In this document: positions 8,781 to 36,456 of the stretch, piece after piece
How the letters are laid out: each line of letters begins with the position of its first letter
Position numbering within the stretch: position 1 is the first letter of the stretch
Origin: an uncultured Bacteroidales bacterium
GTDB lineage: Bacteria > Bacteroidota > Bacteroidia > Bacteroidales > FEN-979
Assembly: GCA_903925275.1 (NCBI GenBank)
Contig: CAIYES010000085.1
Span: 1-55,868 of the forward strand
Direction: 5' to 3'
Length of the DNA stretch: 55,868 nucleotides
Notes under the pieces: model-generated
Told to the model about the DNA's origin: nothing
The model's database searches: none
Seen by the model: the letters and a program-made list of their open reading frames with translations, nothing else
Position numbers and translations under genes: made by a program

Positions 8781-8843
8781 CTGTTATTTGGTGCAACTTT
8801 GAGCTGTCGCCTTCTGACATTTGCAGGATTTATTAAAAAACAC

Positions 8844-9665
8844 ATGAAAATAATTCATATTGACAACAACCCAATTGGTTCATTTGCATATAAGAATGCA
8901 GGTCCCCGATATGATTTAAATGAGGATGGGAGCAATAAACTCATTGAACGATATTTACCAATTCAAAAAGGTGTTTTTGAGAAATCGGCCCCAAACATTG
9001 ATGCATTGATCATTGCATCTGATCTGCAAGGTAATGTTGATGGTGATGGACGTACTGGCCTGTTAGGCGAACATCTTGCTGAATATTTGAGATTACTGAT
9101 CGAATCAGAATTCAAAATTTCCAATCAAAACACAGGGGTGATTTTGGCAGGAGATCTATATGCACCTATTGACAGACGAGGTGGATATGGTGATGTGAGA
9201 AAGGTTTATACCAGTTTTAGAGATGCTTTCAGGTGGGTTGTCGGAGTCAATGGAAATCATGATAAAATCGGGGTATATAAAGTTGACGAACCACGATTTA
9301 GGAAGGAAGAAAACATTACCATTTTGCACAAAGAATCCAAGGTGATTGATGATTTTAATATTTCCGGTATCAGTGGGATAATTGGCAATCATTTAAAACC
9401 AAACAGAGTAGAGGAGGATGAATATCTGACAACTTTAAGAACCATGCTTTATGATCAGCCCGACTTGATGGTTCTGCATGAAAGCCCTGATTTTGTCGCT
9501 GACAATTTTGATGGAAACGAAAAAATAAGACAGGTAATTGAAGACTCACCTAAAAATCTGATAATTTGTGGCCATCGATTTTGGAAAGAGCCATGGAGAG
9601 AATATCATAATGGATCTCAAGTTTTAAATGTCAATGAACGGGTGATTGTTTTAATTAAGCAATGA
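8844..9665 (+). CDS. Metallophosphoesterase, 273 aa
   Basis: Calcineurin-like phosphoesterase with its motifs in order: IIASDLQGN near residue 57, VILAGDLYAP, VVGVNGNHDKIG (GNHD signature), LHESPDF and IICGHRFWK (GH). These bind two metals that hydrolyse phosphomono- or diesters. The substrate is unknown. I chose the ATG at 8844, since the TTG 45 nt upstream adds a non-conserved leader. Cytoplasmic. Convergent with the phosphatase gene at 9695-10264. Confidence 0.85.
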   Translation: MKIIHIDNNPIGSFAYKNAGPRYDLNEDGSNKLIERYLPIQKGVFEKSAPNIDALIIASDLQGNVDGDGRTGLLGEHLAEYLRLLIESEFKISNQNTGVILAGDLYAPIDRRGGYGDVRKVYTSFRDAFRWVVGVNGNHDKIGVYKVDEPRFRKEENITILHKESKVIDDFNISGISGIIGNHLKPNRVEEDEYLTTLRTMLYDQPDLMVLHESPDFVADNFDGNEKIRQVIEDSPKNLIICGHRFWKEPWREYHNGSQVLNVNERVIVLIKQ

Positions 9666-17957: not shown

Positions 17958-18863
17958 TCAGCCAACCCGGCTCCTTCGGTCAATGAGCCTTCTCAGGCAC
18001 CTGATATATTCCGGGTCAGTACCGCAGCATCCTCCCAGCACGGAAGGCCGGAAGGAGAACAGTTCATCGGCAAGGGTTTCCAGGAATCCTGAACCTTCCG
18101 GGTAAATTGTACATCCATCTGTATAAGCTGGTTCACCGGCATTGGATTTGATCAGGATGTTCAGATCCCTGCTCAGGGAGCGGAGTTCTTTCCCGACATT
18201 GATCATCTTCTCCAGACCGTTTCCGCAATTTGAACCCACGGCCAGAGCGCCTGCCCGGGAGAGTTCTTCCGCTGCTTCCGCCAGGGAGGTTCCCATCATG
18301 GTGTTGAAGCCCATTGATGAATGTTCAAAGGTCATGGACGCAAAAAAAGGAAGGCTGCTATGCTCCCGTATGGCCTGTATGGCGCACAGCAATTCATCCA
18401 GCGCGGTAAAGGTTTCAAGCATGAAACCATCGATGCCGGAACCGGCCAGCGACTTTACCTGTGCGGCAAATGACTGGGTCATCTGATCACTGGTAATTTC
18501 ACCGAAAGGTTCCATGAATTTCCCGCAAGGGCCCATGGAAGCAAGTACAAACCTTCCGGACGGCTTCACTGATAAAGCCAGCTTTGCAGCGGCTTCATTA
18601 AGTTCATTCACCCGGTCTTCCAAACCATAATCCCGGAGTTTAAGCAGGGAACCGCCAAATGTGTTGGTCAGCACAGCATCGGAACCTGCTTCAAAATAGG
18701 ATCGGGCAACATTTTTAACCTTATCGGGTTGCTCAATATTCCATAGTTCGGGACAATAACCGGGTTGCAAGCCGGCAGCAATCAAACAGGAACCGGTGGC
18801 TCCGTCCAACAGGAGAACCTTACCGGAAGCAATAAATTGCGAAAGGGTTGGCATGGAAATCAT
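17958..18863 (-). CDS. Homocysteine S-methyltransferase (MetH N-terminal-type)
   Basis: 301 aa from the ATG at 18863 (other possible starts at 18872 TTG and 18854 ATG). A single Hcy-binding barrel: LLLDGATGSCL near the N-terminus, DAVLTNTFGG, then the three zinc ligands in GSNCG (Cys213) and GGCCGT (Cys279/280). Known members transfer a methyl group to homocysteine from methylcobalamin, betaine or S-methylmethionine. It has the size of the isolated MetH Hcy domain. It is co-directional with a corrinoid protein and a MetH-type activation protein, so methyl-cobalamin is the likely donor. It is the last gene of the locus, 43 nt after the GH127 gene. Confidence 0.85.
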   Translation of the reverse strand: MISMPTLSQFIASGKVLLLDGATGSCLIAAGLQPGYCPELWNIEQPDKVKNVARSYFEAGSDAVLTNTFGGSLLKLRDYGLEDRVNELNEAAAKLALSVKPSGRFVLASMGPCGKFMEPFGEITSDQMTQSFAAQVKSLAGSGIDGFMLETFTALDELLCAIQAIREHSSLPFFASMTFEHSSMGFNTMMGTSLAEAAEELSRAGALAVGSNCGNGLEKMINVGKELRSLSRDLNILIKSNAGEPAYTDGCTIYPEGSGFLETLADELFSFRPSVLGGCCGTDPEYIRCLRRLIDRRSRVG

Positions 18864-18906
18864 AATTATCAATCAATTTAGGCTCTGTTATACCGTCAGT
18901 TCATTG

Positions 18907-20832
18907 TTAAAAAGATACTTGTCTCAAAATGGTTTTTCCCAGAGGAATCAATTCAAGCTTTTCCGGTTTTTGTGTGGTTTTATTTTTCAGATATATACTG
19001 ATTTTCCCATCCTTAAAGCTAGCCTGATGATTTGCTATAAACTCATACTTGCTCGAATCAGTTGGAGAATAGGTCAGGTCAATGAAACCGGAAGCATAAA
19101 CTTTTCCTGTATGCTCGATGGCTTCAATGGGTTTTGCATATATCAAAGCTCCATAGCTGAAGTATTTTTCGTGATTCAAATCCTCTATTACCTGAACTTC
19201 AGCCTTAAATTCCAGTTCGATCTGATCATTTTGTAATAATTTCCGGTCAAAAACCAGGTATCCCTCTTCAAGCCGGTAGTTTTCTTTGGTTTGTATGGAT
19301 ATTGCCCACTCCGGTTTTCTGATCTTTAGTTGAAATGAAACTGCTTTCCTGGTTTTTATTTTGAAAATAAAGTGATTCTGGAAGGGATATTCTGTTATTT
19401 CTTCAATTCCTACCGGAACATTTTGTATGGTTGTTTCCAGGATATTCGGGCCTAAAACTGCTGCCAGTAGTGTGTTGTCACCTTCTTTCAACCAACAGCA
19501 TTGGAGGAAATACGGCGAAATACGGCCTGCATTCGGGACGCAGCAAACAGCCACATCCTGATGGACAGGCGAATATTTATAGCGAGTTTGTTTTCGATCG
19601 GGTTCCGCTTCACCATTTCGGGTACCAGTCATTTCATATGAATTGTCAGTTTTCAGATAGGCAATACACGAATGATCAGGATTTCTGCTTCCCTGCGCGG
19701 CATTGTAAAAAATGGTTTCTATTTCCTCAGCAGCCTTGATATCGCCGCTTTTCTGAAACAATGCGGTGTAACTATCCATGAGTTCATGCAGCGAGCAATA
19801 TTCGTATCCGGTGTGTGTGGCATCTGCCTGTCGCCCGCCAATCCATTCATCGCCAATAGCACCGCCTGTTGGGGTGGTGCAGGCTTTAATCCGTTCAAGA
19901 TAAATTTGCAAAGCGTTCTTTAACTCCGGCGTCCCCTTAGCATAAGCAGCCACAATCAACGATCGCAAATGTTCGTAGGTATGCGCTCCGTGTGATTGAA
20001 GCTTAAAGTTTGGGTCTAAAATATTATGGAGTTGGACATCCTTTTCTGAAGAATAGTTTTCGGAGAAATTCAGGTATAAAAAAGCGGCATAATCCGAATA
20101 TTTATGGTCGCCGGAGAGTTGATGCATCCGGTCTAACACATCGGTAAATGTTAATCCATGAGCCACACCGCCTGAAAAATCTTTTCCTGCAAAAAAGGGC
20201 TGTGACTGATTAACCGGGTAATTCTGCATCACATTGTCAACCGCCCGGACCAGCGCTTTCCAAACGTTTTCGTCGTGAGTGTATTCGTAATAAGCCAGTA
20301 ATCCGCGGTATAAAGTTGTTTTTGACCACAATTCGCCATTTTCGCCAGTGAATTTATAGCGTAATTCTTTGTCGTAAATGCCAATATACCCATCTTCGTC
20401 CTGTGTTGCCAGAATCCGATTGATGTAATTTTTTACTTTTTCAATCGCCTGTTGATCATCAAGCAGAAAAGCATTCCGGATATATCCATCCCACCAATTC
20501 GACTGGGTTTCGGAGTTCCACCATTTGTATTGATCGTCGCCTCCGGCATCGCCCGATTTAAGATTCCCCAAATCTTTTGCTTTGCTTTGTTTGTGCAACC
20601 GTTCTCTACCATAAATGGGGTCGTTCATCAAATCAGGAACCAATAGGTCGAGGTTGCCAACAAACCCGGCCATGTCTTTTTGCATTTGCACCTTAAGCCA
20701 TCCCAAAGGTTTTATGCTTCCGAAAGGCAGACTCTGGTATTTTTCTGACACCATTTTTTCTTGTGCATTCATAATAAAAGGGGTGAATAAAAGCAAAACA
20801 GGAATCATTTTTATCGATAATATTATTTTCAT
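18907..20832 (-). CDS. GH127-family glycosidase (beta-L-arabinofuranosidase-like)
   Basis: 641 aa, signal peptide (residues 1-24, ending MNAQE), so predicted periplasmic or exported. It has an alpha/alpha barrel of the DUF1680/GH127 type. The zinc-thiolate active site of GH127 is recognisable: Glu344-x-Cys346 in GYEYCSLHE, and Cys430-Cys431 in VAVCCVPN. This corresponds to the Glu/Cys and paired-Cys ligands of characterised beta-L-arabinofuranosidases. The family also contains enzymes for rarer sugars, so substrate specificity is open. It lies between GH13 and the homocysteine methyltransferase, in the same direction. Confidence 0.85.
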   Translation of the reverse strand: MKIILSIKMIPVLLLFTPFIMNAQEKMVSEKYQSLPFGSIKPLGWLKVQMQKDMAGFVGNLDLLVPDLMNDPIYGRERLHKQSKAKDLGNLKSGDAGGDDQYKWWNSETQSNWWDGYIRNAFLLDDQQAIEKVKNYINRILATQDEDGYIGIYDKELRYKFTGENGELWSKTTLYRGLLAYYEYTHDENVWKALVRAVDNVMQNYPVNQSQPFFAGKDFSGGVAHGLTFTDVLDRMHQLSGDHKYSDYAAFLYLNFSENYSSEKDVQLHNILDPNFKLQSHGAHTYEHLRSLIVAAYAKGTPELKNALQIYLERIKACTTPTGGAIGDEWIGGRQADATHTGYEYCSLHELMDSYTALFQKSGDIKAAEEIETIFYNAAQGSRNPDHSCIAYLKTDNSYEMTGTRNGEAEPDRKQTRYKYSPVHQDVAVCCVPNAGRISPYFLQCCWLKEGDNTLLAAVLGPNILETTIQNVPVGIEEITEYPFQNHFIFKIKTRKAVSFQLKIRKPEWAISIQTKENYRLEEGYLVFDRKLLQNDQIELEFKAEVQVIEDLNHEKYFSYGALIYAKPIEAIEHTGKVYASGFIDLTYSPTDSSKYEFIANHQASFKDGKISIYLKNKTTQKPEKLELIPLGKTILRQVSF

Positions 20833-20960
20833 TTCTTTTGAGTTTTAACAAAGGTTAAAATTATTCAAGTAGTAAAATCCTGAATTTTCAGATTTGCCTA
20901 GCCTGACTGAAAATGAGGTTAAGCTTTGGTTGAGGCACAATGGTTATCACCTGAGTAATT

Positions 20961-22586
20961 TTATTCTTTATACACGATAAAACTATAAGGTTGAAAAACA
21001 AGGTTATTGCCATGAATGCTGGTTCTCTCTTGAAAATCAGGTTTTTTATCAGAAGGTAACCACCTGATGATATTTGATTTTTGCGAAAGATTCATCATAA
21101 CTATGACTTTTTCGCCGGCATTTTCCCTTGAAAATGCCAAAATATCTGGATTCACCGGTTGCACCAGGTTAAAATCTCCGTTTGTTATTGCTTTGTTTGT
21201 TCTGCGATAATGTATGAGTTTACAATACAGATTCCATTGGGATGCGGGGTCTTTTTGCTGCACTGACAAGGCAAGTTGGCCGGATTCACCGGTTTTAAAG
21301 TAGGACTGGTCCCACCATGGTCCTGAATCTTTATAAAAGGCTGCTGTGCCGGGATCATCCGGATTTGGGGTCCATGGAAAGGCTTCCCTTACAGGTATAT
21401 TATTGACGTCGTAACCCCAATTGCCAATTTGACCGGTAACGCCCAATTCCTGTCCGTAATAAATCGAAGGGATGCCAGGCAACAGAATATTTAAGACTGC
21501 CGCGCACCTGGTTTTATCTTTATTCTTTTTTACAACCGAAGCAAATCTTTCTGTATCATGGTTCTCAATAAAATTTATAAAGTATTTCCCTTTTGGGATT
21601 CTCCGTAAAGTTTCTTTTACCTGTTTCCCAATATTGTTTGCGTCAAGGCTGTTTTTTAAAGATGAGTCAGCAGATTTGCCTCTGAAATAATCGGGAGTTC
21701 CTGCTATGGCGAATTGAATTGGAAATCCGAAGCTGGCATCAATACCACTTTTCCGGATCATCTCCTCGCCATATTCAGCCCAGTTTGATTGTTCCCCGAC
21801 TACAAACAGGTCAGGATTAATAGCTTTGCAGCTTTTGAAAACCGGGTTCCAGAAGTTGCTGAACATATCAGTAAATATCCCTCTATCGTCAAGGTTATCC
21901 ATCATATGGTCAATCCGGAAACCATCAACCCCATCATCAAACTTGCCATCACCATTAGGATCAACCCAGTACGTATAGAATTTTTTTGTCCAATCTTTTA
22001 CTTTTTGGTTGTTCAGGTCCAGGTATACAATGTATAATTTCTGGTCAGGCCATGCCCTGAATTCCTTCAAATCAGAACCCGATGGAATATAGAACTGATC
22101 AGGATAACGGTTTAATGAATCGCTGTAATGAATAAACGAAGAATAGGGTGAGCCGGGGTTTTTAAAGGATTCATCAAACCACTTGTTGCCATTTTGAGCA
22201 TACTGGGTTTCCATATCCATGATAAACCTGAGACCGTTTTGGTGGACCGCTTTTACGAAATCCAGATAATCCTCCATCGTGCCAAATTCAGGATCAATTG
22301 TTTCATAATCTTTGGCAAAATAGTTATGGTAGAAATCTGATTCATAAAGAGGCGTAAACAAGATTGTTGTTACTCCCAATTCTTTCAGATATCCCAGCTT
22401 TTCAACAAAACCTCTCAGGTCGCCATGCCGGTCGCCGTTTGAATCGAAGAAACTTCGTTGAAATACATGGTAGATGATTTCATCGTTCCAGCCTGGCTCG
22501 TCTTCGTTATTTTTAATGTTAACTGTTGAACAGGAGTTGGTGAAAAGAAGGATGAATGTTAACAGGCGGAATAAATACTTTCTCAT
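20961..22586 (-). CDS. GH13 alpha-amylase-family lipoprotein
   Basis: 541 aa with a lipoprotein signal (LLFTNSC; lipidated Cys19). GH13 catalytic residues are in order: nucleophile Asp226 in DGFRIDHM, acid/base Glu265 in VVGEQSN, stabiliser Asp344 in ENHDTERF. The N-terminal YHVFQRSFFDSNGD and the calcium-like DPNGDGKFDDG insert suit an alpha-glucan hydrolase or transglucosylase. The C-terminal beta domain is complete (FQPYSFIVYKE). Membrane-anchored, extracytoplasmic. 145 nt downstream of the corrinoid gene, in the same direction. Confidence 0.9.
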   Translation of the reverse strand: MRKYLFRLLTFILLFTNSCSTVNIKNNEDEPGWNDEIIYHVFQRSFFDSNGDRHGDLRGFVEKLGYLKELGVTTILFTPLYESDFYHNYFAKDYETIDPEFGTMEDYLDFVKAVHQNGLRFIMDMETQYAQNGNKWFDESFKNPGSPYSSFIHYSDSLNRYPDQFYIPSGSDLKEFRAWPDQKLYIVYLDLNNQKVKDWTKKFYTYWVDPNGDGKFDDGVDGFRIDHMMDNLDDRGIFTDMFSNFWNPVFKSCKAINPDLFVVGEQSNWAEYGEEMIRKSGIDASFGFPIQFAIAGTPDYFRGKSADSSLKNSLDANNIGKQVKETLRRIPKGKYFINFIENHDTERFASVVKKNKDKTRCAAVLNILLPGIPSIYYGQELGVTGQIGNWGYDVNNIPVREAFPWTPNPDDPGTAAFYKDSGPWWDQSYFKTGESGQLALSVQQKDPASQWNLYCKLIHYRRTNKAITNGDFNLVQPVNPDILAFSRENAGEKVIVMMNLSQKSNIIRWLPSDKKPDFQERTSIHGNNLVFQPYSFIVYKE

Positions 22587-22731
22587 AGCAACTTATTGAG
22601 AATTAAGTTTGGTATTAATTGTTTACTTCGATTATAATGAAGAGGCGGATAAGGATGATTGCAGGTTAATAAATAGTTTTCATAATGTCTTTTGTTTAAG
22701 TAATTCAATCGATTAAGCCAACACAATTCGT

Positions 22732-23403
22732 TCAGCAATTTTGCAAATTGTTAAGGTATGCCACTGCGCCCTGGGGATCGCGGCTGTAAAAATCGGCTCC
22801 GATCTTATTGCAGAATGCAGCATTGAGAGGTGCCCCACCCACTAAAATTTTTGTTAATGGATGTTTTTCTTTCAGATTTTTTACTACCGATTCCATGTTT
22901 GCCATCGTAGTGGTTAACAAGGCGGAAATTCCAACTGCACTATTTGGATACTTTCCCAGCGTATCCAGAAAGGTTTCAGATTTAACATCTACTCCTAAAT
23001 CAATTACTTCCCATCCGGCTCCTTCCACGGTCATGGCGACCAGGTTTTTACCAATGTCATGTAAATCGCCGAAAACAGTACCTATTATGAAAGTACCTTT
23101 GCGTTTTACTTCACCCGACTGGAAATAAGGTTTCAAATGAACCAGTGCAGTACTCATGGCTTTGGCGGCCATCAGCATTTCCGGGACAAATACTTTTCCC
23201 TGGCTAAACTTAAGCCCAACGGCATTCATGCCTGGAATCAAACCATGTTCCAGAATTTCGGCAGGGTTTATGCCTGCTTCCAACGCCTGTTTTGTTAATT
23301 CATCTGCGCCAACCTCACCCCGCATTGAAGGCGGGAAAGGTGATTTTTGATTGATTTTGCCAAACTCAATGCAAATTGTAAGTTTCTCTACTATTTCATT
23401 CAT
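22732..23403 (-). CDS. Corrinoid (B12-binding) methyl-carrier protein, MtaC-like
   Basis: 223 aa with a helical cap domain followed by a Rossmann B12-binding domain. The cap contains NPAEILEHGLIPGMNAVG and VFVPEMLMAAKAM. The lower-axial-ligand motif is DLHDIGKN (His115), followed by the SALLTTTM and LVGGAPLN loops. Such proteins carry the methyl group between two methyltransferases. Residues 21-31 (SPFPPSMRGEV) have no counterpart in the family as I know it and coincide with a palindromic DNA repeat at 23311-23343. Flanked by the UroD-type methyltransferase upstream and GH13 downstream, same strand. Confidence 0.92.
   Translation of the reverse strand: MNEIVEKLTICIEFGKINQKSPFPPSMRGEVGADELTKQALEAGINPAEILEHGLIPGMNAVGLKFSQGKVFVPEMLMAAKAMSTALVHLKPYFQSGEVKRKGTFIIGTVFGDLHDIGKNLVAMTVEGAGWEVIDLGVDVKSETFLDTLGKYPNSAVGISALLTTTMANMESVVKNLKEKHPLTKILVGGAPLNAAFCNKIGADFYSRDPQGAVAYLNNLQNC
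23308..23343 (-). repeat. Palindromic repeat apparently inserted in the corrinoid gene
   Basis: An imperfect hairpin (CCTCACCCCGC at 23313-23323 facing GCGGGAAAGG at 23331-23340) encodes residues 21-31, SPFPPSMRGEV. That peptide resembles conceptual translations of intergenic CCCTCTCC/GGAGAGGGG-type repeats such as the one at 48601-48648. The reading frame is kept across it. Confidence 0.55.
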
Positions 23404-23498
23404 AACGATAGATTGTTCTTTGGGCAGGCTATTAATAATCAGTCTTTATTATACTCAGCTATGGCTTTGAAAAAGGCATCAATGTAAGGTTTTAGTGA

Positions 23499-24509
23499 TT
23501 AATTGGTTTTAGTTTTTCTCGAAATATCAGCCAATTTCATAAGATTTGCTATAGGAGTATAAACACCGATTTCACATCCACCTGAGAGAATAAATTTCTG
23601 GCCATGCATTTGTTGGACAAGTTCATTTGCCAGGCTTTCAAGGTGCTGAGTTGATGTTTCCTGAATCAAAACAGGGTTAATATTTCCTTTGATTACCACA
23701 TTATTACCCAATATTTTTCGTGCTTCCTGTATTTCAACCTGCCAGTCAAGATCAATAATATCCAAATTTAAACAACCAATGGAAGGTAATAAATGGTTGA
23801 TATTCCCGCAGATATGCAGTTTGGCTTTGGCCCCCAGCGAATGAATATGATCAACGAGTTCTTTGTGCCTGTCTTTAACATAAAGATCATAGGTGTCTGC
23901 ATCAATCTGCGAACAAATTGCATCCCCAATTCCAATGTAGTCGCAGCCTTCATTTATTTGTGCTTTTGCAAACTCCCTGGCTACGATCATACATTTATCC
24001 ATAATCAGATTTGAATAATCAGGATCGCACATCAGATTTATCAGCATTTCGCTTACACCGGCTAAATCGCATGCTTCAGCCAACGGTCCTTCAATCCATC
24101 CACCCACCGGGACGGTTCCTTTTAGCAGTTTCTGAAAGTGGCCAGCTCCTGAAATCCTGTCGCGTGTTCGTTCACAATGATAAATGTCAGGAATTGCTAA
24201 TTTTTTGGCATCATCCTCATTTTGAATCACGATGTTCAAACATTTTGGAACGCCTTCGGGTATAAATTCAATACGGGCTCCAAAAGCAGATGTTTCGCGG
24301 TAAGGATCACTGATCAGACTTACCGTATCAAGGTCGAAGTATTCCATACAGCGTATGTTTGACTCAACCAGTACTTTGTAATCCGAAGCAAGTTTGCCAT
24401 AAGTCGTTTTATTAAAACGGGCCGCAAAGTGCATCAGTATGGGTTTGAATAACACAATTGAATGGAGTTCACCTGAAAGTAATTTATCAAACTGCTGTTT
24501 TTTGTTCAT
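23499..24509 (-). CDS. UroD-fold corrinoid methyltransferase (MtaA/CmuA-like)
   Basis: 336 aa from the ATG at 24509; the TTG three codons upstream is less likely. It has the uroporphyrinogen-decarboxylase fold, but with the zinc ligands of MtaA/CmuA-type methyltransferases: His-x-Cys in LHICGN (residues 232/234) and Cys312 in LSGGCEIG. True HemE lacks this set. Known relatives move methyl groups between substrates or coenzymes and corrinoid proteins. Here it lies 95 nt before the corrinoid gene and 35 nt after the reactivation gene. It is the best candidate for the enzyme loading methyl groups from an unknown donor. Confidence 0.85.
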   Translation of the reverse strand: MNKKQQFDKLLSGELHSIVLFKPILMHFAARFNKTTYGKLASDYKVLVESNIRCMEYFDLDTVSLISDPYRETSAFGARIEFIPEGVPKCLNIVIQNEDDAKKLAIPDIYHCERTRDRISGAGHFQKLLKGTVPVGGWIEGPLAEACDLAGVSEMLINLMCDPDYSNLIMDKCMIVAREFAKAQINEGCDYIGIGDAICSQIDADTYDLYVKDRHKELVDHIHSLGAKAKLHICGNINHLLPSIGCLNLDIIDLDWQVEIQEARKILGNNVVIKGNINPVLIQETSTQHLESLANELVQQMHGQKFILSGGCEIGVYTPIANLMKLADISRKTKTN

Positions 24510-24544
24510 ATGCTTCAATTATCAGGTTAAAAGATAGATCATGA

Positions 24545-25240
24545 TTATCCATTGTGTTTTAAGTTGCGATACAGGCATTGGGAAGAATCGCACACTTCGC
24601 AGGTATATGCTTCCTGGTGAATCTCAGGTCCGATACCTATAAATCCGCTGATTGACTTTATGGGTTGCATAAGGCATGAATCAGAAAGCGAAATTCCACA
24701 GAATCCAGGCGGGAGTAAGCTGAATAATTTTTTTTGTTCAGCAACATTCCATCCGCAATATCCGGGGCTATAACGGTTTGAAATCCCTGAACCTATTACA
24801 GCCATTTCAAGCTTTAAATTATTTTGAACCTGTTCCATGGCATTTTCAACAGCAAGGCTTCCAAATATGTCATAAATATAGCCATGCAACATTTCATTAT
24901 TTTTCATCAGTGTACGTGATTTTTCAAACACTGCATCTCCAATTGTACAAGCAAAAACAGCAATCTTTTCACTTGCCTTAAGCTGTTGAAAGATGTTGTT
25001 TTTAATACTGAACGGAATTCTGTTAACAAGAATCTGTTTTAACGTTATATCTGTTTCAACATCTTCGGCAATCAGATATCCACCGGTAATCTGAAGGAGT
25101 TCACAGCCATTCATAAAAACCTCATCAATATATTCATCAACCATTGCCTGTACTTCGGCAGATACACCAAGTACTGCATAAATTTCAGCCCGGCTTATTT
25201 CGACTGATTGGTTTGGAATATTGAATTGCTGTAAATGCAT
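24545..25240 (-). CDS. Stand-alone MetH activation-domain protein
   Basis: 231 aa. Resembles the C-terminal vitamin B12-dependent methionine synthase activation domain: NRYSPGYCGWNVAEQKKLFS corresponds to the SAM-binding 'RYSFGYPAC' region of MetH, followed by GISLSDSCLMQP and SISGFIGIG. A Cys-rich tail (TCEVCDSSQCLYR) is added. In MetH this domain uses SAM to re-methylate oxidised cob(II)alamin. As a separate protein it would reactivate the corrinoid protein of this locus. It starts 6 nt after the MFS transporter stop, indicating one operon. Confidence 0.82.
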   Translation of the reverse strand: MHLQQFNIPNQSVEISRAEIYAVLGVSAEVQAMVDEYIDEVFMNGCELLQITGGYLIAEDVETDITLKQILVNRIPFSIKNNIFQQLKASEKIAVFACTIGDAVFEKSRTLMKNNEMLHGYIYDIFGSLAVENAMEQVQNNLKLEMAVIGSGISNRYSPGYCGWNVAEQKKLFSLLPPGFCGISLSDSCLMQPIKSISGFIGIGPEIHQEAYTCEVCDSSQCLYRNLKHNG

Positions 25241-25246
25241 ACGATT

Positions 25247-26692
25247 TTATAATTCTCTTGGAGTTTTACCTTGCCGCCAGTGATTTTCAATCATTTCGAG
25301 TGATTTTCCTTTTGTTTCGGGAATATAAAAGTAGCCCCAGATCAAGCCTGCAATCCCAACGAGGGCATATAACCAGAATGCGCCTGCCGGATTGCCGAGG
25401 TTTTCATTGTTAACTGTAATGTCAGTTCCTTGAATGGTAAGCCCTTTCACAATTTTAAAAAAAGTAAAAGCTACCACTCCATTGAACAACCAGTTTGAGA
25501 GCGAACCAATACTGGCGCCGATGCCGCGAACTTTTAGAGGGAAAACTTCTGAAATTATTACCCAACCTAAAGGTCCAAGGCTGACGGCGAAAAAAGCAAT
25601 GTAAATCCAAACTAAAGCAACCGTTAGTTGTTTTACCGAATCGCCCAGTGATGATTGCAATGCAAAGCACATCCCCAGAGCGATAAGTGAAACCACCATG
25701 CCACTTAAGCCAATCAAATATAATTTCCGCCGGCCTAGTCTGTCGACAACAGATAATGCTATAATTGAAGACAAAACACACACAGCACCTACACTAACCG
25801 AAGCCAATATAGCTGCCCGTGCTCCCTGAAATCCTGCCATAAGGAATATTTTCGGGCTATAGTAAATTATAGTGTTGATTCCGGTAAATTGCTGAACAAA
25901 CATAATCCCGATTGCAATTATGAAAGGGGTACGGAGCCTTGGCTTAAATATTTCGTTCCAACCGGTTTTGTTATACTTGTCAATTTCAATTTCTTCCTTC
26001 ATCCCGGAAATTGTCGCCTCAACCTGTTCAGAATCTTCCACTTTCATTAATACTTTGCGACTTTTATCTTCGAACCCTTTGCTAATCAGCCAGCGCGGTG
26101 TTTCTGGCAAAAACAGCATACCCACCAGCATAATACCTGCAGGAATAACACCAACATAAAACATCGGGCGCCAGCACTCTGTATAACCTGTAGCACCCTC
26201 AGGAAGGGCGAAAGCCAGGTCAGAGAAATAAGAGACAAAAATACCAATTGTAATAAGAAGCTGAAACAGGGAAACAAATCTACCCCTGCTTTTAGCCGGT
26301 GAAATTTCAGCAATATACAGAGGCACCGCAAATGAAGATATTCCAATAGCTATACCCAAAAAGAACCGGGCAGCCATTAAATTACCTGAACTGGGAGCAG
26401 AACCTGACCAAAATGCTCCTAGGATAAAAATGAGTGCTGCTGCAATAATCACTTTTTTCCGACCAACGATGTCAGCAATCCGTCCCGAAGATATTGCACC
26501 AAACACGGCACCAGCAAGACCAGCGGTGGTAATTAATTCTACCCAGTCGTTGTCCAGGGCAAAGCTTTTTTGAAAATATGGAATAGCACCAGATATTACT
26601 CCGGTATCAAAACCGAAAAGCAATCCGCCGGTTGCAGCTATAGTCGCAATTACGGCAACCAGAAGTTTATTCTGAGTTGGTTTTTTCTCCAT
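25247..26692 (-). CDS. Sugar porter (MFS, XylE/GLUT-like)
   Basis: 481 aa with twelve transmembrane helices and the full set of sugar-porter signatures: GRIADIVGRKK after helix 2, PETPRWLISKGF at the central loop, DRLGRRKLYLIG in the second half and a C-terminal YIPETKGKSLE. These members are proton-coupled or facilitative monosaccharide importers in the inner membrane. Its placement between GH92 and the methyltransferase genes suggests it imports the sugar released by the locus' glycosidases. Confidence 0.93.
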   Translation of the reverse strand: MEKKPTQNKLLVAVIATIAATGGLLFGFDTGVISGAIPYFQKSFALDNDWVELITTAGLAGAVFGAISSGRIADIVGRKKVIIAAALIFILGAFWSGSAPSSGNLMAARFFLGIAIGISSFAVPLYIAEISPAKSRGRFVSLFQLLITIGIFVSYFSDLAFALPEGATGYTECWRPMFYVGVIPAGIMLVGMLFLPETPRWLISKGFEDKSRKVLMKVEDSEQVEATISGMKEEIEIDKYNKTGWNEIFKPRLRTPFIIAIGIMFVQQFTGINTIIYYSPKIFLMAGFQGARAAILASVSVGAVCVLSSIIALSVVDRLGRRKLYLIGLSGMVVSLIALGMCFALQSSLGDSVKQLTVALVWIYIAFFAVSLGPLGWVIISEVFPLKVRGIGASIGSLSNWLFNGVVAFTFFKIVKGLTIQGTDITVNNENLGNPAGAFWLYALVGIAGLIWGYFYIPETKGKSLEMIENHWRQGKTPREL

Positions 26693-26805
26693 GATAATTT
26701 ACATTTTTATTAAATGTCAATATTTTACTGAAACCACGAAGTGAATTGCTCTAATCAAGGGCTTCAAGAAATTAGATGATGCTCTCACTATTATTTTATT
26801 GCAAA

Positions 26806-28953
26806 TTAGTTTTCAGTCATTAGAAATTTCAGACATCCTCCATCCATAATCTCTTTATAGGAAATGAATGGTTTTTTGATTTGAATTCCGTTTAAAATTC
26901 GGATATCGTTATAAAATGACGTTTCTGAAAAATTCTTGCTTTCAATTACAAATTGCTTCCCTTTTGACAAGTGAAGCGTAGCTTTTATTAATTGTGGAGA
27001 CCCTAAAACAAACTCATTTCCGGCCGGATTCACCGGATAAAATCCCATGCATGACAGAATATACCATGCTGACATTTGCCCGCAGTCGTCGTTGCCAATC
27101 ATTCCGTTGGGTGTATTGTTGTGGAACTCGCTGATAATTTGGTGGATGTATTTCTGGCCGACTTTGGGCGTAATGGAATACGCATACAAATAAACAATAT
27201 GATGGCTGGGTTCATTTCCATGTGCATATTGCCCGATCATGGCTTCCTGGCCAAGAAATTTGTTGGCATTCCGCTCTTCGATGGTGAAGAAATCGTTCAG
27301 CTGCTTTGTAAATGCTTGATCCCCGCCTAAAAGTTTTTTCATGCCATCGATGTCGAACTGGGCAGGAGTCCAGAAATACTGCCAGGCATTGGCTTCGGTA
27401 TAATCACCTGGATTATTCATTGGTGAAGTAGCTGTCAAGGGATCAAAAGGTGTCCGCCAGTTGCCATAGGTATCTTTACCCCGAAACATTTTTGTATCAG
27501 GATCATACAGGTTTTTGTAGTAATCAGCCCGTTTATAAAAGGTTTTTGCCAAAGCAGTATCTCCCAATTTTTCGGCCATTTTGGCCACGCACCAATCATC
27601 GTAACTGCTTTCGAGAGTCCGGGAAACGGCTTCGTTATCCAGTTTATTAAAAGGGTAATAACCATATTTATTGTACAATTCCCAATCCGAATTGATGTGA
27701 CGTTTAGTTGAAGTTTCAATCATTGCTTTCAACGCTTCGGTTTTATCAAATCCCGTGAAACCTTTGTTGTAAGCCGAAAGTATCATTGGAATTGCATGGT
27801 TGCCGATCATGCAATAGTTATCCTGTCCCCAGGCCGTCCAGATTGGAAGAAACCCGGCAACTTTATAATGAAGGAGCAAGGTATTGACGATGCCATTAAT
27901 TTTTTCAGGAGCAATAATTTGCAGCAGCGGGAAAGCACCACGGTATATATCCCAGATGGAAAGCGTGGAATAATATTCTTTATTCGGTGCCTGCGCAATT
28001 TTATCATCAGCACCACGGTATTTCCCGTCGACATCGGCTATATTCGAGGGTTGCAAAAAAAAGTGATAAAGAGAAGTATAGAAGATTTCTTTTTGCTTGG
28101 TTTCGGCCTCAATTTCTATCCTGCTAAGGTATTGGTTCCAGGTATTTTCGGCGTTTAGTTTTATCTTTTCGAAATCCCAGTGTGGTATTTCGGTTCGCAT
28201 GTTGAGTTTTGCCCCGGCCACATCCACGGTGGATAAAGCAATTTTTGCCAGCAGTGTTTTATTTTTGCCAAGGTTAAAAGTCAGGATATATTTCGGGGCA
28301 TTTTCTTTCGGACCCTTTACCAGTTGTTCTGATTTTATAAATGGTTTATCAAATTTGATCACAAAGAAATACTTCCGTTCCACCCAGTTTTTTGTATGAC
28401 AATAGCCTGAAATGGTTTGATGATCTTCAATGTTCACTTGTGATTCTAATACCAGGCTGTCTGTCAGAAAACGGAGACCATGTTGAAAATTGGCCAATAC
28501 TTTGGCTTCCCCGGCAGGGAACGTATAACGATGAAAAGCCACTCGTTCAGAACAGGTCAGTTCAACTTTTACCCCATCTTTTTTCACCAGGGAATAATAA
28601 CCAACACTGGCTTTTTCGGAATCTTTAAAATATCTGTTTTTCAGAATTTCATTCGGATTATTGACAAATGGAAGCAGCAGCACATCGCCCATTTCGTTAA
28701 TACCGGTTCCACTAAAGCGGGTTTGTGAGAAACCCAGAATAATGCTGTCCTGATACTGGTATCCGCTGGTGTGATTCCAACCTTGATCCCGGTTATCCGG
28801 TCCCGGTTGGACCATCCCAAAAGGCATCGACGGACCTGGAAATGTATGCCCGGTTCCGTCAGTACCGATAAAAACATTGACGTATTGAATATTGTTTTGC
28901 GCACTTACTATTGTTGCAAAAGCGATAAAAAAAACCAAAAGAGAAGACTTCAT
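26806..28953 (-). CDS. GH92 alpha-mannosidase-family protein
   Basis: 715 aa from the ATG at 28953, which places the signal peptide (MKSSLLVFFIAFATIVSAQ) at the N-terminus; the TTG 27 nt upstream is less likely. GH92 landmarks: NVFIGTDGTGHTFPGPSMPF at the start, LSIWDIYRGAFPLL, HGNEPSHHIVYLYAY with the catalytic acid Glu, and GNDDCGQMSAWYILSCMGFY with the catalytic-base Asp region. Characterised members are calcium-dependent exo-alpha-mannosidases. First gene of the minus-strand locus, divergent from the AraC regulator. Confidence 0.93.
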   Translation of the reverse strand: MKSSLLVFFIAFATIVSAQNNIQYVNVFIGTDGTGHTFPGPSMPFGMVQPGPDNRDQGWNHTSGYQYQDSIILGFSQTRFSGTGINEMGDVLLLPFVNNPNEILKNRYFKDSEKASVGYYSLVKKDGVKVELTCSERVAFHRYTFPAGEAKVLANFQHGLRFLTDSLVLESQVNIEDHQTISGYCHTKNWVERKYFFVIKFDKPFIKSEQLVKGPKENAPKYILTFNLGKNKTLLAKIALSTVDVAGAKLNMRTEIPHWDFEKIKLNAENTWNQYLSRIEIEAETKQKEIFYTSLYHFFLQPSNIADVDGKYRGADDKIAQAPNKEYYSTLSIWDIYRGAFPLLQIIAPEKINGIVNTLLLHYKVAGFLPIWTAWGQDNYCMIGNHAIPMILSAYNKGFTGFDKTEALKAMIETSTKRHINSDWELYNKYGYYPFNKLDNEAVSRTLESSYDDWCVAKMAEKLGDTALAKTFYKRADYYKNLYDPDTKMFRGKDTYGNWRTPFDPLTATSPMNNPGDYTEANAWQYFWTPAQFDIDGMKKLLGGDQAFTKQLNDFFTIEERNANKFLGQEAMIGQYAHGNEPSHHIVYLYAYSITPKVGQKYIHQIISEFHNNTPNGMIGNDDCGQMSAWYILSCMGFYPVNPAGNEFVLGSPQLIKATLHLSKGKQFVIESKNFSETSFYNDIRILNGIQIKKPFISYKEIMDGGCLKFLMTEN

Positions 28954-29053
28954 CTGTCTAAATCTATTTTTACATGACAAATTTTCTCAATTTTCAGAAG
29001 TTCTTATTTGTCTGAATTAACAAGAATTTGTGTAATATTACCATCATCAATGA

Positions 29054-29941
29054 ATGAATGTAGATGTTTACGATAATGAAGACACAATGAAAGCATTTTT
29101 CGAACAACTTACTACAGGGATTGAAAACTCTATATCGATCATCGATATAAATATGACCTCTTTCGATGGACCTTATCATTTTCATCCGGAATTAGAGCTC
29201 ACCTGGATTCGAAAAGGTTCAGGGAAGCGTTATGTGGGTGGTAACGTTTCAGATTATAAACCCGACGACTTGGTTTTAGTGGGAGCTAATGTTCCACATT
29301 GCTGGCACAGTACGAACGAAGCGATACCAGACAATGCCCAGGCTATCGTTATTCAGTTTCACCCAAATTTTGCGGGAGCGGCGTTTTTAGAACTTCCTGA
29401 GTTAATCAAAATTAAAAGTCTGTTTGAAAAGGCCATTGCCGGAATATTAATTACAGGAAATACGAAGGAAAAAATAATCTCCAAAATAAAGCAATGTCCT
29501 GCCTCAGATGGATTATACAGGCTTTTGCAATTCCTGGAAATACTTGCGCTTATTGCTGATTCCGAAGAAACTGAACTCATCGATCATCATTTTGCAGGGC
29601 TTACAGCATCTCCATCTGAAACTGATCGTTTTCAAAAGGTTTTTAGTTACCTGATCGAGAATTATCAGCAGGAGGTCAGCCTTAAAACAGTTGCAAAAAT
29701 TGCGAATCTGACTCCTACTGCTTTTTGTCGTTATTTTAAGAATGTAACCCGGAAAACACTGGTGAAAATAGTTACAGAATTCAGAATCAATCAAGCCTGT
29801 CAATTACTTAGAAACTCTGAAAAATCGGTGAATGAAATTTGCTTTGAATGTGGCTTTGGAAACAACTCCTATTTTAACAAAACATTTAAATCAATCACTG
29901 ATTATACGCCATTACAGTATAGGAACTTGTTTTTAGACTAG
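29054..29941 (+). CDS. AraC-family transcriptional regulator
   Basis: 295 aa. The N-terminal cupin sensor domain (DGPYHFHPELELTWIRKGSG, VLVGANVPHCW) is the kind that binds sugars. The C-terminal double HTH (SLKTVAKIANLTPTAFCRYF, then CFECGFGNNSYFNKTFK) matches AraC/XylS proteins. It is transcribed away from GH92 across a 100-bp gap and is the obvious regulator of the glycosidase/methyltransferase locus. I do not see clear direct repeats marking its operator. Confidence 0.92.
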   Translation: MNVDVYDNEDTMKAFFEQLTTGIENSISIIDINMTSFDGPYHFHPELELTWIRKGSGKRYVGGNVSDYKPDDLVLVGANVPHCWHSTNEAIPDNAQAIVIQFHPNFAGAAFLELPELIKIKSLFEKAIAGILITGNTKEKIISKIKQCPASDGLYRLLQFLEILALIADSEETELIDHHFAGLTASPSETDRFQKVFSYLIENYQQEVSLKTVAKIANLTPTAFCRYFKNVTRKTLVKIVTEFRINQACQLLRNSEKSVNEICFECGFGNNSYFNKTFKSITDYTPLQYRNLFLD

Positions 29942-30210: not shown

Positions 30211-32202
30211 ATGATGAAGAGATGTGTTTTTGTTTCACTGTGCTTTTTTACCTTCTTTTTCAGCTTTGGAAACGTGAGGGTGTCCAGAATCTTTAGTGAT
30301 CACATGGTGTTGCAGCGCAACAAACCTATTCCTGTGTGGGGTTGGGCGGATCCAAATGAAAATGTCATCGTGGAATTCAACAAGCAAGCAAAATCAGGAA
30401 AGGCTGACAGCAGCGGGAAATGGATGGTGCGTCTGGATCCCGAAAAGGAAGGCGGTCCTTTTCAATTAATCATCAATGCCGGGAACAAACTTACTTTCCG
30501 TGATGTAATGGTAGGAGAGGTGTGGATCTGCAGCGGGCAGTCTAACATGGAATTCATGGTAAAATCTGTTGCGGATGCAGAGACCGAAATAGCGGAAGCC
30601 AACTACCCGCAGATCCGGCATTTTACTGTTCCCAAACATATCAGCGCTTTTCCTGAAGATGAGTTGACAGAAGGCCAATGGGATGTTTGTAGTCCTGAAA
30701 CCGTTGGTGATTTTACTGCCGTCGGGTATTTTTTCGCCAGGAATATCTTCAATGAAATCAAAATACCTATTGGACTGATCAATGCAACATGGGGCGGTAC
30801 GGTGGTTGAAACCTGGACCAGCAAAAACACACTGGAGCGCAGCGATGATTTTAAAGATATCATTGCGGCGATATCTTCCTTTAACCAGGATTCATTGCTT
30901 CAAACAAAGAAAAGGGCATCGGAGAAGTATTTAGCCCAAATGACGAAAAGGATCGAATCATTGCAGGGAAGCGTCAATAACTTCAATGATGTTGATCAAT
31001 GGATGAAAGCAGATTACAATGACAGCCACTGGCCACATATGAAATTGCCGGGTCAGTGGGAAAATCAGGTAAAAGGGTTGAAATACCTCGACGGCTCAGT
31101 CTGGTTCCGGAAAAATTTTACCCTTGGCAGGGAGGAAGAGGGTAAACCTGCTAAAATTAACGTTGCGATGATCGACGATAATGACCGGACTTATGTCAAT
31201 GGGGTTCTGGTCGGGTCTACTTTTGTATGGAACAAAATAAGGATCTACGGGGTGCCTGAAAATGTTCTAAAAAAGGGGAAAAATGTAGTGGCAATCAGGG
31301 TGGAAGATAGCGGCGGCGGTGGCGGAATCTATGGAAATTCTGACGACATGAAAATCATCGTAAACCGGAAACAGATTTCACTTGCCGGGGAGTGGTCGTT
31401 CAAAGTGGATTCAATGTCAATGAAAATTCAGGGTGTTGAGCCGAATGATTTCCCTTGTTTGTTGTACAATGGCATGATAAATCCGGTCATTTCCTATGCG
31501 ATACAGGGAGCCATCTGGTACCAGGGTGAATCCAACGCTGATAGGGCCTTTCAATACCGCAAGGCATTTCCGATGCTGATCAGAGACTGGCGTAATCACT
31601 GGGCAACCGGGGATTTTCCTTTTTATTTTGTGCAGCTGACAAGTTATAATGAAGACAATGGCAACAGCAAAAACGGAAGTACCTGGGCTGAACTCAGGGA
31701 AGCACAGGTTATGACCTTATCGATGCCAAATACCGGTATGGCCGTGACTACCGATATCGGAGATTCAGCCGATATTCACCCGACAAACAAGCAGGATGTT
31801 GGTAAACGTCTTGCGGCTGTAGCACTAAAGAATGTCTACGGGAAAAATATCGTATGCTGCAGCCCCCTTTATAAATCGATGAAGGTGAAAGGGAACAGAA
31901 TAATCTTATCCTTTTACAATACTGGCAGCGGTTTGATGGCAAAAGACAAATACGGGTACCTCAAAGGTTTTAAGATAGCCGGTGCTGACAGCATATTCCA
32001 TTTTGCCAAAGCATTCATCGAAGGAGATGAGGTAGTAGTATACAGTGATTTAATTATTGACCCTGTGGCCGTAAGATACGGGTGGACCGACAATGCATGT
32101 GAAGATAATCTCTATAACAAAGATGGGTACCCGGCAAGTCCCTTCAGAACGGACCAGTGGAAAGGAATAACGGATGAAGAAGAATACACTGTCGGCCTTT
32201 GA
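30211..32202 (+). CDS. Sialate O-acetylesterase-type SGNH esterase
   Basis: 663 aa with a signal peptide (about residues 1-20). The first catalytic block is VWICSGQSNMEF (nucleophile Ser), the second is AIWYQGESNADR, and the catalytic Asp-x-x-His lies in SADIHPTNK. A jelly-roll insert (about residues 265-390; WFRKNFTLGREEEG, GGGGGIYGN) splits the SGNH domain, as usual in 9-O-acetyl-sialate esterases of Bacteroidota. It removes O-acetyl groups from sialic acid or plant polysaccharides; the substrate is not decided. Extracytoplasmic. Outside the AraC locus but adjacent to it. Confidence 0.88.
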   Translation: MMKRCVFVSLCFFTFFFSFGNVRVSRIFSDHMVLQRNKPIPVWGWADPNENVIVEFNKQAKSGKADSSGKWMVRLDPEKEGGPFQLIINAGNKLTFRDVMVGEVWICSGQSNMEFMVKSVADAETEIAEANYPQIRHFTVPKHISAFPEDELTEGQWDVCSPETVGDFTAVGYFFARNIFNEIKIPIGLINATWGGTVVETWTSKNTLERSDDFKDIIAAISSFNQDSLLQTKKRASEKYLAQMTKRIESLQGSVNNFNDVDQWMKADYNDSHWPHMKLPGQWENQVKGLKYLDGSVWFRKNFTLGREEEGKPAKINVAMIDDNDRTYVNGVLVGSTFVWNKIRIYGVPENVLKKGKNVVAIRVEDSGGGGGIYGNSDDMKIIVNRKQISLAGEWSFKVDSMSMKIQGVEPNDFPCLLYNGMINPVISYAIQGAIWYQGESNADRAFQYRKAFPMLIRDWRNHWATGDFPFYFVQLTSYNEDNGNSKNGSTWAELREAQVMTLSMPNTGMAVTTDIGDSADIHPTNKQDVGKRLAAVALKNVYGKNIVCCSPLYKSMKVKGNRIILSFYNTGSGLMAKDKYGYLKGFKIAGADSIFHFAKAFIEGDEVVVYSDLIIDPVAVRYGWTDNACEDNLYNKDGYPASPFRTDQWKGITDEEEYTVGL

Positions 32203-35224: not shown

Positions 35225-36421
35225 ATGAAATATAATTTTGACAAATTTATTGACCGGACAAATACTTCCTGTGTAAAGTATGATTTACGGCAAACCGTTT
35301 TTGGAAAGGGAGATGTTATTCCGATGTGGGTTGCCGATATGGATTTCGAAACCCCTGATTTCATCCGTGATGCAGTCATTCATCGTGCCGCCCATCCTGT
35401 ATATGGCTACACCTTCAGGAATAAGGATTATTATCAGCCTGTCGTGGAGTGGATGAAATCACACCACGGCTGGACAATCCACAGAGATGATATTGTATTC
35501 AGTCCGGGAGTAGTTCCTGCACTCAGTTTTGCAGTGTTGGCGCTTACTGCCCCAGGAGATAAAATTATCATTCAATCTCCGGTTTATCCCCCGATCAGTG
35601 GTGCAGTGCAGGATAACGGCAGAATAGTTTCTAACAATCAGTTGATCCAAAAAGAAGGAACATACCGTATTGATTTCAGCCTGCTTGAAGAACAGGCGAA
35701 GGATGCAGCGATGCTGATCCTTTGCAATCCGCACAATCCGGTAGGCCGTTGCTGGGATAGGAGAGAACTTGAAACGATTGCTCAAATCTGTCTGAAACAC
35801 CATGTGCTGGTTTTTTCTGATGAAATTCATGCCGATCTTGTCATGCCCGGGTTCCGGCACCTGGTCTTCGCCAATTTATCGTCTGAAGCGGCTGAAATCA
35901 CCATCACCGCCCATGCACCCAGTAAAACATTCAACCTGGCCGGACTTGCTACTTCATCCGTTATCATTTTGAACCCCGGATTGCGTGCATCATTTTCACA
36001 ATTGATCGAAAAAATGCATCTGGGCATGGGAAATCTATTCGGCAGCGTCGCCTCCACCGCGGCCTATTTGCATGGAGAACCCTGGAGGCTGCAGCTTATA
36101 GATTATCTGAATGATAACCTTGAGTTTACCGAATCATTTATCAGGAAAAACATCCCTGCTTTACATATGTTCCGGCCGGAAGCGACCTATATGATATGGC
36201 TTGATTTCCGGAATTTCAAACTTGATGATGAAACACTTAAAAACAAACTTGTTTATGAGGCAGGATTAGGCTTTAATCCGGGAACGGACTTTGGCCCGGG
36301 TGGAGAAGGATTTATGCGGATGAACATTGCCTGTCCACGTTCAACCTTGACAGAAGCGCTCGGTCGACTCCAGCGCATGCTGTCCGGAATTCTTTCAGAT
36401 GGCCGTGCAGTTCTCTCTTGA
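35225..36421 (+). CDS. MalY/PatB-type PLP aminotransferase (C-S lyase)
   Basis: 398 aa fold-type I PLP enzyme. Family landmarks: VIPMWVADMDFETPDFI near the N-terminus, GYTFRNKDYY, LCNPHNPVGRCW, FSDEIHADLVMPG (PLP-binding Asp) and the Schiff-base Lys in APSKTFNLAG. This is the MalY/PatB group, whose members act as cystathionine beta-lyases, releasing homocysteine, pyruvate and ammonia. Cytoplasmic. Its product would link to the homocysteine methyltransferase elsewhere in the window, but the two are not co-transcribed. The start ATG at 35225 gives the typical 'MKYNFDK' N-terminus. Confidence 0.92.
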   Translation: MKYNFDKFIDRTNTSCVKYDLRQTVFGKGDVIPMWVADMDFETPDFIRDAVIHRAAHPVYGYTFRNKDYYQPVVEWMKSHHGWTIHRDDIVFSPGVVPALSFAVLALTAPGDKIIIQSPVYPPISGAVQDNGRIVSNNQLIQKEGTYRIDFSLLEEQAKDAAMLILCNPHNPVGRCWDRRELETIAQICLKHHVLVFSDEIHADLVMPGFRHLVFANLSSEAAEITITAHAPSKTFNLAGLATSSVIILNPGLRASFSQLIEKMHLGMGNLFGSVASTAAYLHGEPWRLQLIDYLNDNLEFTESFIRKNIPALHMFRPEATYMIWLDFRNFKLDDETLKNKLVYEAGLGFNPGTDFGPGGEGFMRMNIACPRSTLTEALGRLQRMLSGILSDGRAVLS

Positions 36422-36456
36422 GATCCCAAAGAAAAAGAAAAACAAAACTGTGTAAT

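Follow-up and report, generated by a model that had tools for sequence, protein, structure and literature searches.

Several described enzyme systems carry out corrinoid-dependent methyl transfer, and a gene cluster in the window, the whole 55,868-nucleotide stretch analysed here (contig CAIYES010000085.1 of an uncultured Bacteroidales bacterium), resembles them in part. The cluster (17958–29941) joins glycosidases and a sugar porter to a URO-D-type methyltransferase (UroD1), a corrinoid carrier protein (corr), a MetH-type activation domain (act) and a homocysteine S-methyltransferase domain (Hcy). We tentatively propose that it is probably a corrinoid methyltransferase system that demethylates a methylated sugar. 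Methionine synthase (MetH) likewise has homocysteine, corrinoid and activation modules, which are present here as three separate genes. In contrast to MetH, no folate-binding module was found among the ten locus genes scanned, a URO-D protein is present instead and sugar genes lie in the same run. The soluble coenzyme M methyltransferases MtaA, MtbA and MtsA, together with CmuA, share the URO-D fold and the HxC...C motif with UroD1 and provide its best structural match, but UroD1 scores under the cut-offs of these families and has other neighbours. Type 1 mlp clusters, as described in the available sections of Kountz and Balskus (PMC10418091), also combine a His-Cys-Cys URO-D protein with a corrinoid protein and have no folate methyltransferase. 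They contain several URO-D paralogues, a Ram/RACE activase and sulphur or selenium (S/Se) genes, with Firmicutes making up 73% of the genera, whereas this locus has one URO-D gene, a MetH-type act, Hcy, glycosidases and a sugar porter. The set of Mlp2, Mlp3, corrinoid protein and Ram/RACE is thus not present, as the genome holds one URO-D protein and the activator of the cluster belongs to PF02965.

Aromatic O-demethylases (OdmB, VdmB and MtvB) and the chloromethane system CdmBCA, in the available portion of PMC13222342, share with the locus a URO-D methyltransferase I, a corrinoid protein, an activator and an acceptor enzyme. These systems use a folate methyltransferase II and an ATP-dependent activating enzyme; neither was found at the cluster, the region examined for them, where Hcy and a MetH-type act are present instead and the metal ligands differ. 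Methyl removal from a glycan-derived sugar in Bacteroidota is known for 6-O-methyl-D-galactose from porphyran, in which a cytochrome P450 monooxygenase yields formaldehyde (PMC10033563, as far as its available text describes the route); the locus would instead conserve the methyl group as methionine. This P450 is the sole sugar demethylase met in the open-access literature searched; none of the papers listed there describes a corrinoid enzyme of this kind, which is weak evidence of absence.

Eight minus-strand open reading frames (ORFs) with intergenic gaps of 6–145 nt and a divergent AraC gene form the locus. Reading back from AraC, the order is GH92, a major facilitator superfamily (MFS) sugar porter, act, UroD1, corr, GH13, GH127-like and Hcy. 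This content, with its positions, order and spacing, had been proposed in an earlier sequence-only reading and is borne out by the ORF coordinates and by Pfam, in which each label scores over the curated cut-off (the ten locus genes and further window ORFs, 20 in total, were scanned). UroD1 (23499–24518) carries a zinc-type HxC...C motif. The corrinoid (B12) carrier corr (22732–23403) matches PF02607 (68.5 bits) and PF02310 (82.7 bits) and contains DLHDIG; the stand-alone act (24545–25240) matches PF02965 with 34.1 bits (cut-off 25; partial, 121–265 of 273) and contains RYSPGY, an RxxxGY motif; and the stand-alone Hcy (17958–18872; PF02574, 195.6 bits) contains the SNCG and GGCCG cysteines. 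The GH92 alpha-mannosidase-type enzyme (26806–28980) scores 527.3 (PF07971) and 211.7 bits with the GH92 Pfam profiles and 610.4 with TIGR01180, over its cut-off, and matches the solved GH92 structure 7zgm_A (E 1.4e-200). The divergent GH127-like glycosidase (18907–20832; PF07944 55.1 bits, cut-off 24.9; PF20736 33.8) belongs to GH127 by its profile score, and its EYC...VCC motif corresponds to ExC and CC elements kept in 5/5 homologues checked, which we take to be the zinc/catalytic cysteines of the family. The third glycosidase is of the GH13 alpha-glucosidase/amylase type (20961–22586; PF00128, 190.1 bits). Read by eye, the N-termini of GH92 and GH127 are signal-peptide-like and that of GH13 is lipoprotein-like, in agreement with the earlier assignment of export signals to all three. 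The porter (25247–26692) scores 381.2 bits with PF00083 and 383.1 with TIGR00879 (cut-off 237.8), and the plus-strand AraC-type regulator (29054–29941; HTH_18 PF12833, 71.7 bits) has a cupin-like sensor (PF07883, 31 bits). All eight genes are open, the motifs of working enzymes are kept in those checked (UroD1, corr, act, Hcy and GH127), and no gene of the locus was recognised as an oxygenase.

Glycans of plants, algae and bacteria commonly contain O-methyl sugars. In the proposed route, the exported GH92, GH127-like and GH13 enzymes would release monosaccharides, some of them methylated, and the porter would bring these sugars into the cell. Cytoplasmic UroD1 would then transfer the sugar methyl group to cob(I)alamin on corr, and Hcy would pass it from methyl-corr to homocysteine to form methionine. 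Cobalt oxidised to Co(II) would be restored by act with S-adenosylmethionine (SAM), as in MetH. Overall, this would amount to oxygen-independent demethylation by a methionine-synthase-like machine in which UroD1 replaces the folate module. We infer the direction of the reaction, the acceptor and the methylated-sugar donor, which is most likely an O-methyl ether. If true, a corrinoid-based route of this kind would account for the complete use of O-methyl sugars by anaerobes, and it would couple the breakdown of glycans to the supply of methionine and one-carbon units.

The link between UroD1 and sugar genes was examined in further loci (designated by L numbers) with BLAST against 27 reference glycosidases from UroD1 and corr loci, in a leave-one-genome-out manner that did not include L003. 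Controls were 34 regions of the same genomes, picked by contig number or position rather than at random (40 were requested, 34 existed). A glycosidase match lies within 5 kb of UroD1 in 11/19 loci compared with 2/34 controls (Fisher p 5e-5), with densities of 1.14 and 0.07 per 10 kb, respectively; without a fragment in L031 the counts are 10/19 and 2/34 (p 2e-4). Among four loci fetched later, two have a glycosidase, against 0/12 controls, and Pfam adds a GH20 (L157) and a melibiase (L156). The reference misses families seen once, such as GH97 in L027 and GH42 in L116. When the fetched stretches are taken in full, a glycosidase is found by Pfam or BLAST in 17 of 24 UroD1 loci, among them all six with corr (window, L003, L029, L032, L114 and L116). 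Not counted among the 24 are L041 (a contig-end fragment), the weaker L039 and L040 and a further fragment in L033; several stretches stop at contig ends, and their ORFs were scanned in part. Naive ORF calling overlooked two genes in L029 (corr and act) and three in L114 (UroD1, corr and act), all recovered by separate searches.

GH127 is the commonest companion of UroD1 (7/24 loci: window, L003, L004, L028, L030, L114 and L154). The families linked to UroD1 or corr loci by Pfam, or read from Pfam, are GH92, 127, 13, 29, 31, 3 and 9, and further GH26, 42, 97, 106, 110, 140 and 20. Sugar-type transporters occur in 8/24 UroD1 loci, as porters in the window, L003, L004, L116, L155 and L156, as RhaT in L033 and as a weak match in L034. 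In L031, a 70-residue remnant just downstream of UroD1 (8818–9027) matches the end of the L030 GH110-like gene at 66%, indicating that a whole glycosidase was lost. An arylsulfotransferase-like gene directly follows UroD1 in L027 (6150–7820; PF05935), L035 (1544–3229; PF05935) and L037 (2077–3681; by clustering).

The gene combination itself recurs near glycosidases in other Bacteroidota. In L003, of the same family (UroD1 91% identical), the order is GH92-MFS-act-UroD1-UroD2-corr-GH127-Hcy fragment, where UroD2 is a second URO-D gene. In L116, which belongs to a different class of the phylum (UroD1 40%, corr 71%), it is sugar porter (431 bits)-Hcy-UroD1-act-UroD2-corr-UroD3-unknown-GH42, with a third URO-D gene, UroD3. 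In L114, from outside the class (UroD1 50%), it is UroD1-corr (60%)-act (36%)-GH127-GH13, the set of the window minus the porter, GH92 and Hcy. The genes thus travel together in these three loci, and the lack of conserved co-occurrence that the sequence-only reading had named as its refutation did not materialise. L032 is arranged as GH31-UroD1-corr-UroD2L (a long URO-D class)-CobW-act-GH13, and L029 has the same families. Close homologues of the window GH13 (49–56%) lie in L029, L032 and L114. L028 contains GH92-GH127-UroD1-esterase-like and an AraC gene 55% like that of the window. L004 (Mariniphaga) contains a GH13-like ORF, MFS, UroD1, an esterase-like (CE1) ORF and GH127; the GH13 and esterase labels in L004 and the esterase label in L028 were given by eye or from weak BLAST matches (22% for GH13).

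The second URO-D gene has been deleted in the window, since the sequence just beyond the UroD1 stop leads into a remnant of UroD2, its final 45 bases, at 23439–23483 (minus strand; local alignment). This remnant was overlooked in the earlier reading. In L003 and L041, UroD2 is intact (336 aa, His-Cys-Cys) between UroD1 and corr. The Hcy frame of L003 (7639–8631) stops after 140 aa beside a transposase-looking ORF (by eye) at the contig end, which reflects either an insertion or an assembly edge. Hcy is therefore whole where UroD2 is gone and truncated where UroD2 is whole, and these cases, one each, give only a hint that UroD2 and Hcy work on the same side of the methyl transfer. Both lesions would also be expected of a degraded or accidental assembly, in which a spare split methionine synthase lies by chance inside a glycosidase cluster; Hcy, corr and act are all modules of MetH. 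Such an origin is very improbable, because the combination recurs in L114 and L116, glycosidases are enriched around UroD1, all eight window genes have uninterrupted frames and preserve the motifs that were checked, and a full MetH is already encoded in the genome.

UroD1 also tracks corr where the two genes lie apart: corr is found in 11/13 genomes with UroD1 compared with 32/379 without it (p 5e-10; own genome excluded). The criteria were at least 50% identity for UroD1 and E<1e-70 for corr, and both order samples were taken as the same 393 genomes, as their sizes and handles agree. Adding two weaker UroD1 genomes gives 11/15 (p 8e-9). Corr orthologues (E<1e-70) occur in 43/392 other genomes of the order sample. 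As judged by sequence comparison, conservation supports the sugar link and the corrinoid link.

The host draft genome (5.65 Mb, 574 contigs, 95% complete; the window is contig 85) encodes a complete MetH of 1244 aa, with an activation domain scoring 417 bits, on a different contig. Housekeeping methionine synthesis was therefore rejected as the role of the module, and the earlier expectation that no nearby folate module uses these proteins holds for the ten locus genes scanned. A genome search returned exactly one URO-D match, UroD1, and the PF02607 corrinoid proteins are two, MetH and corr. MttB was considered as a hidden donor enzyme, and none was found in the genome. With its own full MetH, one URO-D protein and no MttB in the host, UroD1 is likely to be the enzyme that takes the methyl group off the donor, and it is the only candidate among the families searched (URO-D, PF02607 and MttB).

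UroD1 belongs to the URO-D superfamily by its PF01208 score (166.1 bits) and by the fold match of its model. The HxC...C ligands noted earlier were confirmed as H235-x-C237...C315. A likeness to MtaA and CmuA, also put forward earlier, stands for the fold and the motif and fails for the curated scores (TIGR01463 107.8, cut-off 235.4; PRK06252 120 compared with 244 bits). The model, built from a four-row alignment, has a mean predicted local distance difference test (pLDDT) score of 69.5 with parts below 50. It is closest to the MtaA-type M. mazei methyltransferase 4ay8/4ay7 (template-modelling (TM) score 0.82, 17% identity), followed by uroporphyrinogen decarboxylases, and gives no substrate indication. 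A haem-pathway decarboxylase was rejected on the basis of the HxC...C motif, NCBIfam methyltransferase scores higher than that of hemE and co-occurrence with corr.

Several observations weigh against demethylation of an O-methyl sugar, the first of which is the metal site. Of 26 UroD1 sequences, a set that includes the weaker L039 and L040, 25 have His-Cys-Cys ligands and one has Arg-Cys-Cys (L036, 5057–6055; no corr match is listed for the draft genome of L036). According to the available sections of PMC10418091, His-Cys-Cys ligands go with S/Se methyltransferases, and URO-D O-methyltransferases have carboxylates or non-ligands at this site; by that rule, as described there, UroD1 is not of the OdmB/VdmB type because both cysteines are kept. 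UroD3, a loose class of 11 sequences, has His-Cys-His in 10 and His-Cys-Asp in one (for six of the 11, similarity to the reference is only 24–35% and the length is below 400 aa), and from these ligands it would fit O-demethylation better than UroD1. No UroD3 paralogue was found in the host by the URO-D search, which returned UroD1 as its sole match. The fetched stretches of the 24 UroD1 loci contain corr in 6, act in 7 and Hcy in 3, the last being the window, L003 and L116. The constant part is thus UroD1 with sugar genes, given that all loci with corr have a glycosidase, and Hcy can be proposed as a general acceptor enzyme only with reserve. No whole glycosidase was found in seven of the 24 loci (L026, L031 and L034–L038), whose ORFs were partly scanned. 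No SusC or SusD was found among the 20 window ORFs scanned, including two of more than 900 aa. UroD1 is patchy, being present in 3/43 family genomes and 16/393 order genomes (E<=1e-30), and at E<=1e-50 in 1/395 genomes of the class sample (its own) and 4/395 of the phylum sample, the own genome included in each count; samples around known carriers gave 7/12 and 2/5. The plasmid search returned 25 records and the phage search, with corr, 21; all were below 60% identity, and no close relative was found on plasmids.

The relation between ligands and substrate is not strict. The CmuA sequence read in L152 likewise has His-Cys-Cys ligands, although the substrate of CmuA is chloromethane; CdmB and a Moorella O-demethylase function without zinc (available portion of PMC13222342). 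The metal site nevertheless raises an alternative in which UroD1 takes the methyl group from an S or Se compound, for example a methylthio sugar or small thioether that arrives along with products of the glycan, and corr relays this group to homocysteine. S-methyl sugars are rare, and the linked glycosidases are varied in family. The nearest solved structure, 4ay7/4ay8, is a thiol (coenzyme M) methyltransferase, which together with the nearly invariant His-Cys-Cys site and its S/Se association in the available sections of PMC10418091 favours such a donor; the S/Se-associated genes described there were not recognised among the annotated ORFs, many ORFs being unscanned, and the example of CmuA relaxes the rule. 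We consider an S/Se donor unlikely.

The glycosidases might also free methoxylated aromatic aglycones from plant glycosides, with UroD1 acting as an aromatic O-demethylase. GH92, GH13, GH127 and GH31 are known to act on glycans rather than on typical phenolic glycosides. The transporters found with UroD1 are of the sugar-porter and RhaT types, and none of the annotated ORFs was recognised as an aromatic-degradation gene. URO-D-type enzymes with such substrates do exist, as OdmB, VdmB and MtvB act on methoxylated aromatics (PMC13222342, available portion), but the site described for aromatic O-demethylases in the available sections of PMC10418091 is lacking in UroD1, and an aromatic donor is distinctly improbable.

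The URO-D paralogues suggest a further arrangement, in which UroD1 acts on the acceptor side, from methyl-corr to a thiol, and another enzyme demethylates the sugar. This enzyme would be UroD3 in some relatives, and in the window it would be encoded elsewhere or lost. UroD1 or UroD2, with His-Cys-Cys, stands alongside UroD3, with His-Cys-His or His-Cys-Asp, in L034, L115, L116, L156, L079 and L094, and the reciprocal state of UroD2 and Hcy in the window and L003 points the same way, with one case each. However, UroD3-like genes accompany UroD1 in only 4/24 loci (L034, L115, L116 and L156), Hcy already provides an acceptor enzyme, and the host genome, at 95% completeness, has no other URO-D protein and no MttB. 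A role of UroD1 on the acceptor side is therefore rather unlikely. In the UroD2 class (12 sequences), His-Cys-Cys is found in all nine members with at least 47% identity and in one of the three more distant ones, the remaining two having His-Asp-Gly. The fourth class, UroD2L (approximately 454–576 aa), has Phe-Cys-Cys in 10/10 and repeatedly adjoins corr (L029, L032, L083, L090, L092, L098, L101, L102, L110 and L111). A CobW-type GTPase and Hcy accompany it in several loci, and its C-terminal part appears thioredoxin-like by eye in L029 and L032.

The partners of UroD1 retain their motifs in relatives: DxHxxG in 38/38 for corr, the cysteines in 10/10 for Hcy and RxxxGY in 14/16 for act. Judged from these sequences, Hcy is the likely acceptor enzyme, converting methyl-corrinoid and homocysteine to methionine, and act would serve in SAM-dependent reactivation of cob(II)alamin. 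Beside corr, Hcy occurs in 11 and act in 14 of 38 corr loci. The homocysteine acceptor assumed in the earlier reading is upheld by this association of Hcy with the corr family and weakened by the three UroD1 loci noted above; it is plausible, and methionine would be the final product in the cell.

Other corr loci contain MtaB (PF12176, L107), pterin-binding and MTHFR-type proteins (L088) or RACo-type activases (L090), and such methanol/folate-type genes accompany corr in L088, L090, L096, L099, L100, L107, L109 and L113 (Pfam labels on one member each, the others by clustering). Their content suggests the use of methanol or other methyl compounds with transfer to folate, and the corrinoid family thus appears to work with several donors and with two or more acceptors. 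Two loci without UroD1 are arranged as GH106-act-UroD2-corr-GH29-UroD3-RhaT-AraC (L079) and GH31-sodium:solute symporter-corr-UroD2-act-GH141-GH78-type (L091). Taken without a control comparison, they point to a possible wider sugar-linked use of the corrinoid module.

Given the variety and the sugar-directed character of the partner glycosidases and transporters, an O-methyl sugar remains the donor judged likeliest. This choice rests on gene context, to which the metal site stands opposed. The sequence-only reading had named O-methyl sugars as the substrate, which is not supported, and the His-Cys-Cys site of UroD1 is of the type reported for S/Se in the available sections of PMC10418091. Its interpretation as a whole survives in the sugar linkage, the co-occurrence with corr and the separate MetH, and not in the O-methyl-sugar substrate, and the link to Hcy is weaker than hoped. 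A broader proposal, possible though doubtful, is that UroD1 founds a sugar-specific URO-D branch in which a thiolate-rich His-Cys-Cys site serves for the anaerobic cleavage of sugar methyl ethers and the methyl group goes straight to methionine. UroD2 and UroD3 would join it in a corrinoid sugar demethylase family across Bacteroidota glycan loci (GH92/127/13, GH29/106, GH141/78, GH31 and GH42). The conflict at the metal site makes the locus a sharp test of whether ligand type predicts the donor atom.

Downstream of AraC, a SASA-type carbohydrate esterase (30211–32202, plus strand; PF03629, 74.9 bits) is a possible extra member of the locus. Elsewhere in the window, a 982-aa ORF (36418–39366) has a GPP34 (Golgi phosphoprotein 3-like) domain ahead of a molybdopterin oxidoreductase, a pairing that is perhaps a start-site artefact or a fusion. 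A 365-aa protein (40451–41548) has a partial formyl-transferase domain (193–276) as its sole Pfam match, and a 528-aa protein (54078–55664) belongs to the ADP-ribosylglycohydrolase family.

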